The notes under the pieces are model-generated. The model was not told where the DNA came from. It saw nothing but the letters and a program-made list of their open reading frames with translations, and made no database searches. Both the position numbers and the translations under genes were made by a program. A stretch of 64,000 bases of DNA from Xestospongia muta. Its lineage: Eukaryota; Porifera; Demospongiae; Haplosclerida; Petrosiidae. Location of the stretch: the NCBI GenBank assembly GCA_963693285.1, contig OY848918.1, forward strand, positions 310,001 through 374,000, written 5' to 3'. Below are positions 15,313 through 59,223 of the stretch, piece by piece (within the stretch, counting starts at the first letter, position 1; each line of letters starts with the position of its first letter).

Positions 15313-15600
15313 ATATGTGTGTGTGCGTGTGTGACCTGATCTGATTTGCAATATAGGACCACTTCTGTCAGAACATTCTGGACGTGATTTATGAAAAAAA
15401 CACCATTAAAAACTCTTCAAAAACTGTTTTGTATACATACATGCAATTACCATGAACAGTTGGGAATATATAGCAACTGTATGTATACAAAACTGTTTTT
15501 TGAGACTTTTTAACAGTTGTCCTTTGATAAGCCACATCACAAATGTTTTGACAGAAGTGGTCCCTTATTGTAAATCAAGTCACACACATGCAGACACACA
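15313..15600. mobile_element. Foldback/MITE-like element, second copy
   Basis: Same structure and same place in the tandem unit as 9733-10020, with a few substitutions. It was therefore present before the unit duplicated. A variable (CA)n/(CACAGA)n tract follows. Confidence 0.65.
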
Positions 15601-15798
15601 CACACACATACAGACACACATGCACACACACACATATATATATATGTTATTAGAGATTAGAGAACTAGATTTAGACATAACTAATAACTAATGGATGATA
15701 ACAATAGGAATCCTAAGTTGAATACTCTTGTTTGTCCAGATGGTCCAAATAGTATTTGTGAGAGATCAAACTTATTGGTAAAATGTAGTATATTAACT

Positions 15799-16074
15799 TT
15801 AGTATATTAAATTTAGAATGACATCTCCAATAGCTGTGATTTTACCCACTAGGTCTACTGAGGATGCTAACTCACTAGAAGTATTATATTCAGTTGTAAG
15901 TAACATAGCATCTGTTGATCTCTTGACTAACCATCTTGTTTCTACTTGTATATTCTTACTAATCACCTCACAATAAAGAGATACGTTGAGTTTTCCTTCC
16001 TCAACTAAAGTAAAGGCTGGTCCACTATTAGTACTAGAAATAGTTGTGTACTGTCCATTGTTTGTCGTTTCCAA
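15799..16074 (-). pseudogene. Single Ig-domain exon remnant in tandem unit 3
   Basis: Open minus-strand frame of 91 codons with an Ig-like pattern (LNVSLYCEV ... VETRWLVKRS). No signal peptide is visible in front of it, and no following exons lie before the EGFR-like gene of unit 2. It is probably a stranded first-domain exon of an Ig gene like 2891-4827. Whether it is still spliced into something is unknown. Confidence 0.5.
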
Positions 16075-16287
16075 ATAATTAATTATGCAAATTGACGTGG
16101 GTGTTGGTATTTATTAATGAACAGCAATCCAGAAAAGATAATGTTATGAGTTTGAATATGAAGAGATAATTTTTATTATAAAATAGAAATTGTATAAGTA
16201 ATGTTACTATAGATAATATATATCTATACAAGTACATCATAATACCTTCTACTTTAATATCTATATATAACAATAGACAATTAATTA

Positions 16288-20960: not shown

Positions 20961-20984
20961 TTAAGTATTTGTTCCTCGGGTCCT

Positions 20985-38863: not shown

Positions 38864-38960
38864 TAGTTTGAGGTCTCCTAGCTGGTTGTCCATTAGGAGT
38901 CAGTGAACACAATCTATCTCTAATGAACTCACTAGCCATTAGCCGGAGAAAGTTAGGCAT
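38864..38960. repeat. Dispersed repeat; empty-site homologue of the 9.1 kb transposon target
   Basis: The block AGGTCTCCTAGCTGGTTGTC then CATTAGGAG then TCAGTGAACACAATCTATCT is found split at 50041-50068 and 59215-59245. In this copy CATTAGGAG (38891-38899) occurs once and nothing is inserted. Confidence 0.88.
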
Positions 38961-50059: not shown

Positions 50060-50068
50060 CATTAGGAG
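50060..50068. repeat. Target-site duplication, left (CATTAGGAG)
   Basis: Perfect 9-bp match to 59215-59223; single copy at 38891-38899 in the uninserted homologue. Confidence 0.92.
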
Positions 50069-50106
50069 ACTCTGTTGAAGTTAGCAGCACATTCGTGCAG
50101 CAGCAC
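50069..50106. repeat. Left terminal inverted repeat
   Basis: 38 bp, 36 matched by 59177-59214 on the other strand. The core GCAGCACATTC occurs twice at this end and again at 59145-59156, as possible transposase-binding units. Confidence 0.9.
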
Positions 50107-50111
50107 ATTCC

Positions 50112-50159
50112 CATAGATAGTATAGACTACGTAACGTTATGTAGTCTATACTATCTATG
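50112..50159. repeat. Perfect hairpin palindrome near the left end
   Basis: 19-bp arms (CATAGATAGTATAGACTAC and its reverse complement) around a 10-bp loop, directly inside the left TIR. No counterpart at the right end. Confidence 0.9.
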
Positions 50160-50700
50160 ACATTCCTCAGGTACTAGATAACCACGCCTTATTAAATATT
50201 TGTGGTTTCAAGTATTTTTGATAGGGTGGAGCTGCAGTTGCTGTTCGCTGTATACTGAAAACTTACAACAACATTGTGTGTAGAACAGAACATTCCATCC
50301 ATTTAGTTAATATATTATAAATGATAGCCAATTAATTCCTTTCAAAATACTTTGTTTAATAAATTGTAATCAATTACTTTTTATATTTTAAGAACAAAAT
50401 TTTTAGCATGAAATTGTTAGCATAAATAATCAATAAAACTAGCACTACAGTCACTGGCCTCCAGCAAAACTTGGCCTTAATTCCTTATACTAGATTTTTT
50501 GCAAACAAGTCTAAAAAGTTAGGTTATTATAAATATTTACGTGAATTTTATTACTAAATTGAAACAGATAGTTTAAGTTCACCTCACAGTGACAAGTTTA
50601 ACACTCTTGCATGCAAATATAAAATTATAATGGTTTGTCATATACAAAGATGACACCATTATTCAATGTGATTTCTTAATATAGATCATTACAACAGTTT

Positions 50701-53202
50701 ACATTCAAAAAGTCATAATAACAAGCATTAAAAGGATATGTACTAAATAATGAACAAATGGTCTTATTGCTGGGCGAGGAAGACACACCCACATCAAATC
50801 AACTGACGATAGTATTTGCACTAACTTGACACACTTGAATATCGTATTGTCATTTACATCTGTACTCTCAAGAGCCAGCAATAAAAAGAAATGTATTGAA
50901 AAATGAACAAATGGTCTTATTGCTGGGCAAGGAAGACACGCCCACATCAACTCAACTGACGATAGTATTTGCACTAACTTGACACACTTGAATTTCATAT
51001 TGCCACTTACATTCAAAGTCTCTATAGCCAGCAATAAGAGGAAATGTACTAAAAATGAACAAATGGTCTTATTGCTGGGCGAGGAAGACACACCCACATC
51101 AACTCAACTGACGATAGTATTTGCACTAACTTGACATACTTGAATATCATATTGTCATTTACATCTGTACTCTCAATAACCAGCAATAAGAAGAAATGTA
51201 CTGAAAAATGAACAAATGGTCTTATTGCTGGGCAAGGAAGACACACCCACATCAAAACAACTGACAATAGTATTTGTATTAACTTGACACACTTGAATAT
51301 TATATTGTCGCTTACATTCAAGGTCTCTATAGCCAGCAATAAGAGGAAATGTACTAAAAAATAAACAAATGGTCTTATTGCTGGGCGAGGAAGACACACC
51401 CACATCAAGGCAACTGACGATAGTATTTGCACTAACTTGATACACTTGAATATCATGTTGTCGTTTACATTCAAAGTCTCAATAGCCAGCAATAAGAGGA
51501 AATGTACTAAAAAATGAACAAATGGTCTTATTGCTGGGCGAGGAAGACACACCCACATCAAAACAACTGACGATAGTATTTGCACTAACTTGACACACTT
51601 GAATATCATATTGTCATTTACATCTGTACTCTCAATAGCCAGCTATAAGAAGAAATGTATTAAAAAATGAACAAATGGTCTTATTGCTGGGCGAGGAAGA
51701 CACACCCACATCAAAAGAACTGACGATAGTATTTGTACTAACTTGACACACTTGAATATTGTATTGTCGCTTACATTTAAGGTCTCTATAGCCAGCAATA
51801 AGAGGAAATGTACTAAAAAATAAACAAATGGTCTTATTGCTGGGCGAGGAAGACACGTCCACATCAAAACAACTGACGATAGTATTTGCACTAACTTGAC
51901 ACACTTGAATTTCGTATTGTCACTTACATTCAAAGTCTCTATAGCCAGCAATAAGAAGAAATGTATTAAAAAATGAATAAATGGTCTTATTGCTGGGCGA
52001 GGAAGACACACTCACATCAAATCAACTGATGATAGTATTTGCACTAACTTGATACACTTGAATATCATATTGTCATTTACATCTGTACTCTCAATAGCCA
52101 GCAATAAGAGGAAATGTACTAAAAAATAAACAAATGGTCTTATTGCTGGGCGAGGAAGACACACCCACATCAAGGGAACTGACGATAGTATTTGCACTAA
52201 CTTGATACACTTGAATATCATGTTGTCGTTTACATTCAAAGTCTCTATAGCCAGCAATAAGAAGAAATGTACTAAAAATGAATAAATGGTCTTATTGCTG
52301 GGTGAGGAAGACACACCCACATCAAAACAACTGACGATAGTATTTGCACTAACTTGACACACTTGAATTTCGTATTGTCACTTACATTCAAAGTCTCTAT
52401 AGCCAGCAATAAGAAGAAATGTACTAAAAAATGAACAAATGGTCTTATTGCTGGGCGAGGAAGACACACCCACATCAAGGCAACTGATGATAGTATTTGC
52501 ACTAACTTGATACACTTGAGTATCATATTGTCATTTACATCTGTACTCTCAATAGCCAGCAATAAGAAGAAATGTATTAAAAAATGAATAAATGGTCTTA
52601 TTGCTGGGCGAGGAAGACACACCCACATCAAAACAACTGACGATAGTATTTGCACTAACTTGACACACTTGAATATCATATTGTCATTTACATTTGTACT
52701 CTCAATAGCCAGCAATAAGAAGAAATGTACTAAAAAATGAACAAATGGTCTTATTGCTGGGCGAGGAAGACACGCCCACATCAAAACAACTGACGATAGT
52801 ATTTGTACTAACTTGACACACTTGAATATTGTATTGTCGCTTACATTCAAGGTCTCTATAGCCAGCAATAAGAGGAAATGTACTAAAAAATGAACAAATG
52901 GTCTTATTGCTGGGCGAGGAAGACACGCCCACATCAAAACAACTGACGATAGTATTTGTACTAACTTGACACACTTGAATATTGTATTGTCGCTTACATT
53001 CAAGGTCTCTATAGCCAGCAATAAGAGGAAATGTACTAAAAAATAAACAAATGGTCTTATTGCTGGGCGAGGAAGACACACTCACATCAAGGCAACTGAC
53101 GATAGTATTTGCACTAACTTGATACACTTGAATATCATGTTGTCGTTTACATTCAAAGTCTCAATAGCCAGCAATAAGAGGAAATGTACTAAAAAATGAA
53201 CT
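50701..53202. repeat. Satellite array, ~16 copies of a 153-bp unit
   Basis: The landmark GGTCTTATTGCTGGGCGAGG recurs every 152-153 bp from 50758 to 53055, with sub-families alternating (TCTGTACTCTCAA versus TTCAAAGTCTCTA segments). 153 is 3 x 51, so minus-strand frames stay open for up to 269 codons in two frames. I treat these as repeat by-products. The array ends within a few bases of a transposon coding exon. Confidence 0.92.
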
Positions 53203-53705
53203 GACAAAACATGTCCTCCAAACCCAATTTTTCAACCTAAATGGATCGAAACAATGGAACGGAAATGGTTGTCTATGGTTCCTTTTTGGACAAATATACT
53301 GAGGAGTGTTAATTCAGGAGATATGTCAACAAGCAGAAATCGAACTGCTGGAACAATTGAGGCCTGGCACCTCATATTGAAAAGAAGTGACCATCCAAAG
53401 CACAGAAAGCGACCAGATCTTTTTTTAAAGGAGCACTACTCAATTCACTTTGGAAGGCAGCTGGCTTATATTGACAATGTTTCTACTAAAGACAGACAGA
53501 GGCTAAAGGTAAAGTACATTATTTGTCTATATATACAATATATATATATACATGTATTCAGAAACAGCTAGATAAACCAAAAACAAAACTGCTTGAGGAG
53601 AAGTGGTCAAAAAGATCTAAGAAGCCAGGACAAAACCTAATGGGTCACTACCAAAAGCCTCCAAAGAAGGATTTTATATTGCTGTATGCACAGAAATATG
53701 TTTAG
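53203..53705 (+). CDS. Transposase-like N-terminal piece of the USP locus
   Basis: Open from the satellite edge through 53508 (PKWIETMERKWLSMVPFWTN, TSRNRTAGTIEAWHLILKRS, RRPDLFLKEHY-like), then an exon 53568-53705 (Lys-rich, KQLDKPKTKLLEEKWSKRSK). The 'R-N-R-T-x-x-x-I-E-x-W-H-x-x-L-K' pattern recalls the C-terminal part of Mutator-type transposases, where a similar N-x-x-x-E-x-x-H-x-x-L-K stretch occurs. I hold this loosely. The start lies inside or was replaced by the satellite. It may be spliced onto the USP exons downstream via an acidic exon (~53943-54050, poly-Asp). Confidence 0.4.
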
Positions 53706-54100
53706 AGATAACTTTCAGTTTTCTCACTTAGGTCCCAATATGATGAAGTTAGCAATACAAAATCATTTCAAGTGTCCATCAAACCAAAGTCAGATGACTA
53801 ACGATATTTACACAAATACATATTATAATCTCCTATAGGGGAGGCTGTGATGAAACATTGTCCGTAGAATGCAATGTATGATTAATTAAGTGTTTAATGT
53901 ACTAAGTACTCACTTTAATGCAGGAAAAACAAGAAGTCATTAATGATAGTGAAAAGTTGAAATTCTCTAGGAGTGATGAACACAATGATGATGATGATGA
54001 TGATGTCATTATAACATCTTTTCAACCTTGTTTGTTACCATCAAAACCTGTGAGTTAATAAACACTCATCTTTGACAAGGTGTTTGTATATATATGACAG

Positions 54101-55435
54101 ATCTATGAGACTGGAGTGCCACTGGAGTTATGCTATACACCCAACAAGGGTTTTGGAAATCAAACCAGCAACCTATGTTGGATAAACAGCGTCCTCCAGT
54201 TATTGCATGTAACCCCCCTGGCAAAACATCTATGTGGTAATTAGAAACCCCAAACTTTGAAGTATTGATGAATTATTATAATAGGTATACCACAAGTGGA
54301 ATTAACACCAGTCCAAAAAGAATACTTAAACATTGAGTGCACAGTAGAAGATAACGTTGCTAATTCACAGATGATAACAGTATTCATTTATTTCAGGCAA
54401 TATTATAGGATTTATGTAATTTAATAGGCATTGATGACATCAACACACATAGCTTTTGGTGGCCAGAATGATGTAATAGAAGGAATAGAATTACTTATTG
54501 ATGCTGTTAGTGTTCAATCAATGCAGGTAATGCAGATTTAAGCAATGTACAACTGTAATCTACTAAGAATGTTTGTCTAATAAACAGAAACTGTTTAACA
54601 TACATACAATCACTAAGAAACAATGTCCTATCTGCAAGGAGGTCTGTTATTGTGACGATGACAGTGTTGTTTATATTAACAATTAGATATATGTTGGAGA
54701 AGAGTACACAAAAATACTATTAATTTCAGTGGTTGGACAAAAAGAAGACTGTATATCAGAATTGTGGCGAAAGAAAATATCTTGCTACTCAGATGAAACA
54801 TCCCATCATTTGTAAGCTATATATTGTGGACAATAATGCCATAATAAAGCCTATAGATGCATACCTTGCAATGAACGTCTAATGACTGTTAGCACAAATG
54901 TTGCTTCACTACCAGATGTACAGATACTAGGCATTTCTCGAAACACATATTCAAGTAAAAAATCAAACCAGCCATTGTTGCTACAAGAGTAAGTTGTAAG
55001 CAATGTAATCAATCTGACATTATATCTAATAGGACAATTACAATTGCAAATACTACCAAACATGATTACACCTCAAGAACTTACCAATTACTTGGAATAG
55101 CTGTTAGTACTGATTACAATGAAAGTTTCCATTTAATCCTGTCGCTGTGTAGGTTCATCATGGACGTCCAACATCTGTAGACACAGGTCACTGTAAGTTA
55201 TTATACAGCTATAAGTTACCTATATTAAAACAAACAAAAACAATAGACACAGAATTAGTGAAAACACCTGGTGGAGAGTGGATTGAATATGATGACAATA
55301 ACATAATTACTAACTATGATTACAACAAAAATATAGACTATATTTCTGTGAGTAAAGCTAATGAAAACAATACATCATTATGATTGCCTCTTAGAGAAAT
55401 GTATGTCTAGCTATATACAAGTCGGATGAGTCGGA
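54101..55435 (+). CDS. USP-type ubiquitin protease (peptidase C19) carried by the transposon
   Basis: Plus-strand exons spell a whole USP domain. Cys box GFGNQTSNLCWINSVLQLLH (catalytic Cys codon 54176-54178); IAFGGQNDVIEGIELLIDAV (54430-54525, Q-x-D block); zinc ribbon CPICKE (54630-54645) and CIPCNERL; LPDVQILGISRNTYSS (the LP-x-x-L-x-x-x-L block); His box VHHGRPTSVDTGHCK (~55150-55195, GHC rather than GHY); GEWIEYDDNNI (Trp...Asp-Asp); RNVCLAIYKSD, the usual A-Y-x-L-x-Y end. Cys, His and Asp of the triad are all present. Introns are short with GT-AG ends. Divergent from known host USPs as far as I can recall. Confidence 0.75.
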
Positions 55436-55701
55436 GGTTAGTATGAAATTATTTCATATCACATAATACATATTGTAATTAATTATACTAACTAAACTTG
55501 TATAGACCGTATTGAAAGTGATTGATGATTGTCCACCAATTTTATCATGGAGAGAAGTCAGTCTGTTGTTAAAATGTGCATGCTTTACTGTTACAATATA
55601 TTTCTATCAGAGTCCATTAGTTGTTAATGAAGACAAGGAAATAGTAAGTACATTGCTAGCAAAGAATTTATTCTATATATATGATAAAGGACTGGAAAGA
55701 G

Positions 55702-56684
55702 ATTAAGGCACCGTACAACACCTTACAGCCAGGAGTGTGGCTAACTGCAGAAGTAAACTATATATATGTATTCATAAATTATTATATATACATACACACA
55801 CATAAGTATACATATACATATATAATCATTGTATATATTATATAATAGTATCTACTTGTGTAGGTAATAATGAATTACTTAATATTGTTAGCAAAGGATG
55901 TAAGTCAAATAATTTTACATGCATGTCACAGAAATTGTTAAAACTAGAGGAATATTGCTGTTGTCGACTCCATATTCCTTCCATTATTAAAAGCAAGAGG
56001 CTTTAGTGGTGTCACAAAATATGTAAGTATTTTATAACTTTAAAATTAAACAAAAAGTAATAAATTCTAGGGCAAAAATCTGTTAGAGAAAGACATGATC
56101 ATATTTCCAGTTCATCGTCCACAACATTGGATTCTCATTGTCAGTGCCTTAATCAACATAATATATGTTTGGGATACATTAATTACACAGGTTGTTGATG
56201 TAAGTGATAAGATCATATATGAAGTCGATTCATATCATAATAGTCGGCCTCATTTAATTAATAGCATATGGTAAGGAATTATTGCATAAGATAACATTTG
56301 AAAAAAGCAGGCTATATTTGTGTAGACTGTCAAAGTTTAAACTATCCATTCGTGAGTGGAGATACTGTGATTCCAAAGTATGTTACACTAATTCATTTTT
56401 ATAGTACTTGTACATCCATAGATGTGCAACAGTCCAACACAGAGTAATGCCTGTGATTGTGGGGTATTTGTCTGCATGGTAAGACTTCATTAACTTGTTT
56501 AATGTTCATTTACGTTTACAGGCAGCAAAGTGTTTCATCGAGAAGAGAAAATTAAATTTTAAAGAAGTAAGTGTAAAAAATGCCTACTTGCATAGGCAGG
56601 TTACATAAATCATAGAGTGAAGCTCGAATAGCTCAAACAATGATCTTGTTGGAGCTAAATAATCTTCATAAGCAAGAAAGTTAG
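55702..56684 (+). CDS. ULP1/SENP-type cysteine protease (peptidase C48), next to the USP
   Basis: Exons give the Ulp1 order: APYNTLQPGVWLTAEVIMNY (55702-55900; the L-x-x-x-W-L start), NIAVVDSIFLPLLKARG, DMIIFPVHRPQHWILIV with the catalytic His (codon 56125-56127), VWDTL with the Asp, SPTQSNACDCGVFVCM with the catalytic Cys (56458-56460), then a helical end (SEARIAQTMILLELNNLHKQ) and a stop at 56682-56684. These proteases cleave SUMO, NEDD8 or similar tags. An exon at ~55506-55580 (TVLKVIDDCPPILSWREVSL) bridges from the USP in the same strand, so USP and ULP1 could be one fused protein or two genes. Confidence 0.75.
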
Positions 56685-56742
56685 TGATTCACACAAAATG
56701 CTTAGATAAGTCATTTCTTATTGATAACCAGTTTTGTACACT

Positions 56743-58980
56743 ATGTCTGAAAGCAACAGCGATGATGATAATGAATTTCCACCAGTACACTTTAACTCTA
56801 ATTGTGAGTTGTTAAACACAAAACATTCCATTCCAGTTTGTTCTATTTAGTAGTTAACACCAAAACAGAGACAAGTGAAACAATGCAATCAGAAATGTCA
56901 GTTATTAATACCCACAAAATCCCACTGAATAAGAGCAATGGTTTGGCACTTAAAACAATATTATCCATTGACGATAGTTTGACTGTGTTGTCATTGGATG
57001 ATGTAAACCTCAATTTAAAAGACATAAAAGAATTAACAAACAGTGAAAAATTTATTTCATCTAAGGTACAGTCCATCTCAAATGCCTAATCATTAATAAT
57101 ACACTCAAATAAATGTAGACAGTATACTTTTTTATAAATGTTTTGAAGACAATTAGTAACAACAAATTTGAAACCTTTTATACAGTCAGTAATTGAAATA
57201 ATCAAATATGTCATGTTTGAACAATACTCTATTATAAAGGATTTGGGTTATGTTGAAGTCATAAACAGTGCTGACTTACAAATTTGCATGACAAGAAAAT
57301 TCATGTCAGAATTTGATAGAGTGAATCCATGTTTTTACATGAAAGTAAGTTATAATGAAGAAGTCTTGACTATGTACCATATATACAACAGAGGTCTAGT
57401 GGACACCAACGATATGGAGAGATATTCCTGATAATTTGTCCTATTTTGGAAGAGGACATGGTTCTAGTGAGTGAAAACTAATAAAACACATGCACTATCA
57501 TCACTTTATCTATTACAGTTCAGCCAACATGAGAATAAGGATGTATTGGTATAAACTATTCATGACAAAATAAGTGATAAAGCAAATGAACTCATTGAAA
57601 CTTTCAGGTATATTCACATGTGATACTGCACATGATTGAGACAAACTTACAGGAAAGCAGTTGCTACGTGGAGGGCAACAGTAATGAAGGAAGCAAGAAG
57701 ATATAACAATTGGAAAATTAATGTGGTGAAGGTTGGTAAACGATTTAATCAAAAATGGGTACCCTGACATATTTAATCATAAGGACACATGCCCTGACAT
57801 GTACAGAAATGTATATATACGTAAGGTATGTGAAAAGCATAGCTAAGATTTAACATTTACATCAGATAATTAAATTTAACAGTATGTGGCAAGTTATCTC
57901 AGAATACCATACGATGAGGATAATTTTGAGGTAGAGACTGTTTATTACATGTTGACATTATCTATAAAAATAGCTGACAACTTACAAGAAGTGGATCCTT
58001 AAAATAAGGTATGTTGTCCATGAAATAATGTATATTAATACATTGTCTGTTAATTCCTAGCTGTTCAGTAGCAGAAGTGCATATGGAAAATGTTCCTCCA
58101 GATTACGTAGAAACCATTAAAACTTATGTCAACCCAAGTACATTATAAACTACATGATTACTGAATGATTGTAATTCCAATCTTTGTTAACTTTAGGTTG
58201 TGATAGAGAAAATGAAGTTAATTATATAATGGATCGTAAGCATATAGTTCTATAAATTCTGTTTATTGATATTTAGAAGAAGATTTAGAGGACAATGACA
58301 TACTACTTCCATCATTTACATCTCAACCAGTAACAGATAAGGATGACATCTTTTGTACTAAACAAAAATGGGGCAAGGAGTTTTACCTTAAAAGTTATCC
58401 GAATTTTAGACGTGACAAATCAGATCAGTATGTTATTCATATATGTGAATACTATATCTAATACTCTATCATTGTATCAGTGACAGCATATTTACAAGAA
58501 GGTTCATTAGAACAACAATCAAAGCAAATGAAGTATGTTTACAATTATCATTTAAAATTTTAAAAATCATGTGTTTATGATATACAAACAGCACACAATC
58601 AGACAATTAATAAATGGAGAATGTTGCAGTGATTTTGGTAAAGTGAAGTATTTAGATGATGGCTGGCCAATTGACCTTGATGATATGGTGAGAATATCAG
58701 TCTAACAAACAATTATTTCATACAAGTTTCATGTAGCTAATGGAAATCGATTATTATTTACTTGCTTTGGTGAGTGATTGTCTAAAAAAACCTGCATTCT
58801 ATTTAAGTGATTTTATGAAATCAATCATCTGGCCAGAGGTAATTCCAGATAATAATTACAAGACATAACCTCATTGAATTATACTTGTAGGTTCTCACTT
58901 TGTTAATAATGGAGAAATTTCACTTTTCATACGAAATAGCTGTTAAGTGCCTTCTACAAAGACAACTTCCCTCTATATAA
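56743..58980 (+). CDS. Unknown multi-exon gene(s) at the right end of the transposon
   Basis: Start MSESNSDDDNEFPPVHFNSN (56743). Exons ~56850-57066 (LSIDDSLTVLSLDDVNLNLK), ~57187-57342, ~57653-57725 (basic, KAVATWRATVMKEARRYNNW), 57775-57825, 57884-57999, ~58066-58140, ~58276-58430 (KQKWGKEFYLKSYPNFRRDK), 58483-58535, 58591-58688, 58738-58840, ~58891-58980 (end LLQRQLPSI-stop). Stops in the likely frame near 57537 and 57998 may mark wrong exon edges, two genes, or decay. I do not recognise any domain. A second transposon-mobility or accessory protein is possible. Confidence 0.4.
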
Positions 58981-59176
58981 ACACAAAATTATTGATTTTA
59001 GATTAAGCAATTTATTGAAAAATAGTTCATTTGTAAATTATATGCTTCTAAATCTTCTTACGTGTTCTAACAAAAACACTGACCTTCAGACGTCTTTTCA
59101 AAATAACACAAGTTTCCTTGTTGCAGTGTCATGTGGTGATGGGCAGCAGCACATTCAAATGAGGAATGTACATTAA

Positions 59177-59214
59177 GTGCAGCAGCACGAATGTGCTGCT
59201 AACTTCAACAGAGT
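59177..59214. repeat. Right terminal inverted repeat
   Basis: Inverted partner of 50069-50106. Confidence 0.9.
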
Positions 59215-59223
59215 CATTAGGAG
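59215..59223. repeat. Target-site duplication, right (CATTAGGAG)
   Basis: Partner of 50060-50068. Confidence 0.92.

Follow-up and report, generated by a model that had tools for sequence, protein, structure and literature searches.

An internally deleted transposon with predicted ubiquitin and SUMO-type proteases in the sponge Xestospongia muta, probably of a Mutator-type, Rehavkus-like family

Structure of the element

A stretch of 64,000 nucleotides from the sponge Xestospongia muta (assembly GCA_963693285.1, contig OY848918.1, positions 310,001 to 374,000; hereafter the window, to which all positions refer unless a contig is named) contains a transposon of 9,146 bp (50069-59214), in which the remnant of a transposase is followed by sequences for a ubiquitin protease (USP, family C19), a SUMO-type protease (ULP1, family C48) and a further reading frame, ORF4 (Table 1). 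Its terminal inverted repeats (TIRs) are identical over the first 30 bp and matched at 36 of 38 positions overall (2 mismatches, counted on the alignment), and are bordered on either side by a perfect 9-bp target-site duplication (TSD). The flanks, joined without the element, align with 95% identity over 64 bp to a second stretch of the window in an alignment that crosses the junction, and this stretch is an unoccupied homologue of the target site. The TSD, the 38-bp TIRs, the length and the uninserted homologue at 38.9 kb had all been proposed in an original prediction made from the letters of the window, and are borne out by these alignments. Directly interior to the left TIR lies a near-perfect 48-bp palindrome (50112-50159), similar to palindromes at other genome sites. 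The size of the minisatellite array varies among copies of the element.

Table 1. Features of the transposon copy in the window and its unoccupied target homologue.
Feature	Position	Strand	Basis
Unoccupied target homologue	38867..38929	+	match to joined flanks
Left TSD, CATTAGGAG	50060..50068		TSD comparison
Left TIR, 38 bp	50069..50106	+	TIR alignment, genome pattern scan
Minisatellite, 153-bp unit, 16.3 copies	50709..53201		Tandem Repeats Finder
Transposase C-terminal remnant, 4 exons, with NRTAGTIEAW	53212..53875	+	splice model, homology to longer copies
Acidic linker exon, with DDDDDDVIITSFQ	53924..54049	+	splice model; comparable stretch ahead of USP in family B
USP (C19) domain, 10 exons	54101..55436	+	Pfam UCH 6.9e-18; splice model
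ULP1/SENP-like (C48) region, 11 exons, the first two being linker	55506..56679	+	Pfam C48 3.1e-20; SENP2 likeness
ORF4, 17 exons, one in-frame stop in exon 57519-57607	56732..58980	+	splice model; kept in family B
Right TIR, 38 bp	59177..59214	-	TIR alignment, genome pattern scan
Right TSD, CATTAGGAG	59215..59223		TSD comparison

The exons were modelled by dynamic programming and subsequently corrected by hand, giving 43 exons between 53212 and 58980 and 42 introns of 40-111 bp (median 50). The program admits GT-AG introns and open frames only, with codon scores trained on the element family's own open reading frames (ORFs), and as a consequence GT-AG borders and open frames are not evidence by themselves. 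The automatic model (40 exons, 1,239 residues) scored 367, versus 111 for the opposite strand and at most 187 for 20 shuffles, in which the same program found open chains as long as 1,054 residues. Within the transposase remnant, NRTAGTIEAW is proposed as the location of the catalytic Glu. In the window copy the minisatellite adjoins the C-terminal part of the transposase near 53.2 kb, and queries taken from longer copies elsewhere in the genome for the PHD finger, the zinc finger and the greater part of the catalytic domain found no match anywhere in this copy. Having lost the PHD finger and the bulk of the transposase, the window copy is an internally deleted, non-autonomous derivative without a usable transposase. 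The original prediction of a Mutator-like element with proteases was right as to content, but overlooked that the transposase is mostly deleted and that ORF4 carries an in-frame stop.

Both proteases match their Pfam families above the Pfam cut-offs in the hand-corrected spliced protein of the window copy. The removal of two in-frame introns restored GHYTELV in USP and HWILIVVDVSDKIIYEVDS in ULP1 and improved the E-values from 1.7e-12 to 6.9e-18 (UCH) and from 2.7e-15 to 3.1e-20 (Peptidase_C48), although the USP query had been trimmed as well. By eye, the same protein contains the Cys box, two CxxC motifs, the GHY His box and the Asp box of USP, as well as the His, Asp, Gln and Cys residues of ULP1, so that residues and Pfam matches agree with the predicted USP with Cys, His and Asp boxes and adjoining same-strand ULP1 with His, Asp and Cys. 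Against solved structures, with queries that predate the in-frame intron removal, the nearest relative of ULP1 is SENP2 (E 1.5e-13), and USP gave a weak match only, to USP1 (E 0.55).

Copies across the genome

In the 158-Mb genome, the TIR core (24 bases, at most 3 mismatches) is matched 68 times in forward and 69 times in reverse orientation, against 0 times for a backward control pattern. Fifteen copies, here called family A, were read: the window copy and 14 other TIR-bearing places, 13 of these 14 with both ends. An exact 9-bp TSD is found in 8 of the 14 both-ended copies, window copy counted; c1_23529 has a left TIR match twice, and the TSD borders the inner of these. The ends of three copies on contig C8 are doubtful because one right flank is common to all three.

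The longer copies appear, from their sequences, to encode in order a PHD finger, a WRKY-like zinc finger, an IS256-like DDE transposase with CxxH, an acidic linker, USP, ULP1 and ORF4, all tightly packed on one strand. The PHD query matches 4 of the 15 copies, and in the longer copies, not the window copy, this finger scores 24.5 bits against PF00628 (cut-off 24, E 2.9e-5, profile positions 13-47 of 47). The catalytic exon is 394 codons long in two copies (c8_1681 and c1_23529), 387 codons long in c7_5613 and internally deleted in c7_6638; it matched no Pfam family, MULE (Mutator-like element) transposase models included, and none of 43 transposase homologues has an informative name. In two of 14 aligned copies, everything from the C-terminal part of the transposase through ORF4 is without stops, frameshifts or lost splice sites; one of the two also has a full catalytic exon.

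USP and ULP1 sequence is kept in 13 of the 15 copies. Both proteases are absent from c1_15025, which has an exact TSD and part of ORF4 only, and from c1_10577, which has unrelated content and no match to the coding region. The USP Cys-box exon is kept in seven copies, in one with a 1-base deletion. Another six (L009, L010, L014, L021, L026 and L028) lack the transposase and the USP Cys exon and retain ULP1 together with ORF4, either most of it or a part; the break is identical in four (L009, L014, L021 and L026), and in L009 and L021 ULP1 has no stops or frameshifts although the USP Cys exon is gone. A genome-wide protein search, in which 84 of 280 candidates were scored and all counts are lower bounds, gave at least 139 matches in at least 35 places: at least 17 with both domains, at least 16 with USP only and at least 2 with ULP1 only. 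At L027 (C1:10577885-10584658), a 6.6-kb stretch has TIR-like ends, flanks that are inverted rather than direct repeats, and other content in its interior, including ORFs that look receptor-like by eye.

A second family, age and constraint

The same genome holds a second family, B, with the order of parts of family A and with 57% identity to it in the transposase (over the codons compared) and 50% in the PHD finger. None of the three family B copies that were read is both complete and unrearranged: the USP boxes are present in L042, where the ULP1 segment is inverted, L043 retains ULP1 with little USP, and both proteases are missing from L041. Variant-TIR matches lie nearby; within the fetched stretches around the three copies, no left or right TIR was found.

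Between the families, the transposase, USP and ORF4 differ at a proportion of 0.27-0.37 of nonsynonymous (pN) and 0.78-0.89 of synonymous (pS) sites; no dS is given for these three because pS is near saturation. For ULP1, dN/dS is 0.34-0.35. The USP figure derives from a single copy and 182 codons, and codons were retained only at a local identity of at least 30%, a selection that leans to conserved parts; neutral sequence at this distance would scarcely align. Since synonymous sites are near saturation (ULP1 excepted) and only 27-37% of nonsynonymous sites differ, the proteases appear to be old and constrained, long retained in two long-separated branches of the family, and the comparison likewise points to constraint on the transposase and ORF4. 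Within family A, dN/dS is mixed (0.48 to 2.02 over 15 pairs), and the value for the window copy versus c7_6638, 1.06, fits a copy that has decayed since insertion. Signs of the purifying selection that the original prediction had raised appear between the families, and the proteases were not captured recently. Protease-free copies, which the original prediction had named as refuting evidence, do occur (c1_15025 and c1_10577, and L041 in family B). The association is nevertheless kept, since L041 and c1_15025 are read as deletion derivatives.

One gene or several

The reading frame can run across every junction in the window copy and in family B, which is weak evidence given so permissive a splice program. 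More telling for a fused gene is an acidic, hydrophobic linker ahead of USP in both families (DDDDDDVIITSFQ; DDVIIVEES and DDDNDVCIMSIQ), which by eye looks like a SUMO-interacting motif. Most likely, one spliced transcript would yield one protein, and the models place the PHD finger and the transposase on the same chain. A serious but less probable alternative is that the transposase, USP, ULP1 and ORF4 are each transcribed alone, the continuous frame being a by-product of packed short introns and a model that seeks open chains. ORF4 indeed starts near a Met, the unspliced transposase exon of c7_6638 reaches a stop soon past KPPKKDFILL, and long chains also come from shuffled DNA; set against this are the splice score, well above that of every shuffle, and the linker between transposase and USP, which is recognisable in family B too.

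Proposed function

Probably the transposon belongs to a Rehavkus-like, Mutator-type family of cut-and-paste elements, of which the window holds a non-autonomous copy shortened by internal deletion and whose longer copies carry the set from PHD finger to ORF4. The anatomy, the expected catalytic residues, the multi-copy spread and the old, shared retention with constraint are observed; the mechanism built on them would be as follows. The transposase would act on the TIRs by binding and cutting them, which would produce the 9-bp duplications, and the PHD finger would read a histone mark. USP and ULP1 would take ubiquitin and SUMO off proteins of the transposition complex, whether the transposase itself or local chromatin and repair factors, and the loss of these tags could prolong activity or relieve SUMO-dependent silencing; any effect on host silencing is speculative. 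More tentatively, the whole might act as a single transposase-linked SUMO-ubiquitin eraser, long kept in an animal, in which the SUMO-interacting linker targets SUMOylated chromatin or transposase, ULP1 strips SUMO and USP strips ubiquitin, such that the transposon escapes SUMO-dependent silencing or the ubiquitin-dependent removal of the transposition complex.

It is unlikely that the proteases instead cleave the element's own polyprotein in the manner of viral proteases; both sit within one long predicted protein, as this would have it, but by their domain matches they fall among ubiquitin and SUMO proteases, and ULP1 has SENP2 as its nearest solved relative. Least probable is that the proteases are hitch-hiking pieces of host genes with no role in the element: Mutator elements are described as tending to take up such fragments (PMC6446971), and six copies retain ULP1 and ORF4 sequence after loss of the USP Cys exon, yet order and catalytic residues are alike in two families so diverged that the transposase, USP and ORF4 are close to saturated at synonymous sites.

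Other repeats in the window

A second, distinct USP-like gene piece lies at about 19.3-20.7 kb on the minus strand (UCH 2.9e-22 on the modelled protein). A 701-bp stretch of it has at least 55 further genome matches at 81-95% (40 of 75 candidates were scored), although several of these matches are pieces in tandem at a single place. Another multi-copy repeat with a USP thus lies within the window, and a boundary of it may be near 20980. Most repeats of the stretch at 15600-16260, also on the minus strand, are clustered locally on contig C2, and the stretch apparently belongs to a tandem host gene family with no relation to the transposon.

Comparison with known systems

Of the described groups, Rehavkus comes closest in anatomy, a likeness drawn from descriptions rather than from transposase sequence; the original prediction had not named it. 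In the parts of the sources used here, Rehavkus elements are given a 9-bp TSD, TIRs of 26-400 bp, a PHD finger, a minisatellite and one ORF, with arthropods and annelids as hosts (PMC6446971), and Rehavkus-1_TC of Tribolium is 9.5 kb long with a 164-bp satellite in both termini (PMC10218199). The sponge element shares the TSD length, a TIR length within that range, a PHD finger with the transposase (in the four family A copies and family B, not the window copy) and a minisatellite by an end, with a 153-bp rather than a 164-bp unit. It differs in that its minisatellite lies at the left end, ahead of the genes, rather than ahead of the 3' TIR (PMC6446971) or in both termini (PMC10218199), in that USP, ULP1 and ORF4 come after the transposase where a single ORF is listed, and in its host. 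The words ubiquitin, ulp1, protease and sponge are absent from the main text of PMC6446971.

The remaining comparisons follow the relevant parts of Bao et al. 2010 (PMC2836005). Ulp1 is reported there in Mutators of hydra, lancelet and plants, which share a C48 protease with the present, probably Mutator-type element, but no C19 protease is named alongside. Ginger1 elements are animal DNA transposons with a ubiquitin-like protease and, in one, a PHD finger; their transposase is of the integrase type and their protease Ulp1 or OTU rather than USP. The Trichomonas protein XP_001314237.1 joins a C19 protease to a transposase, in this case transposase_11, of another class and in a protist, with no Ulp1 mentioned. 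A partial literature search found no publication that describes an element with both C19 and C48, in keeping with the view that the pair was new for animal elements, although ULP1 alone had already been published for the hydra and lancelet Mutators. Ubiquitin-like proteases are recurrent in DNA transposons, with a role so far proposed: Bao et al. suggest a ubiquitin/SUMO link to transposition and repair (PMC2836005). With a deubiquitinase and a SUMO protease both retained with a transposase, in order and apparently under constraint, it becomes testable which modifications limit transposition and whether a transposon brings its own means of removing them, and Rehavkus-like elements may extend to another animal group, the sponges.
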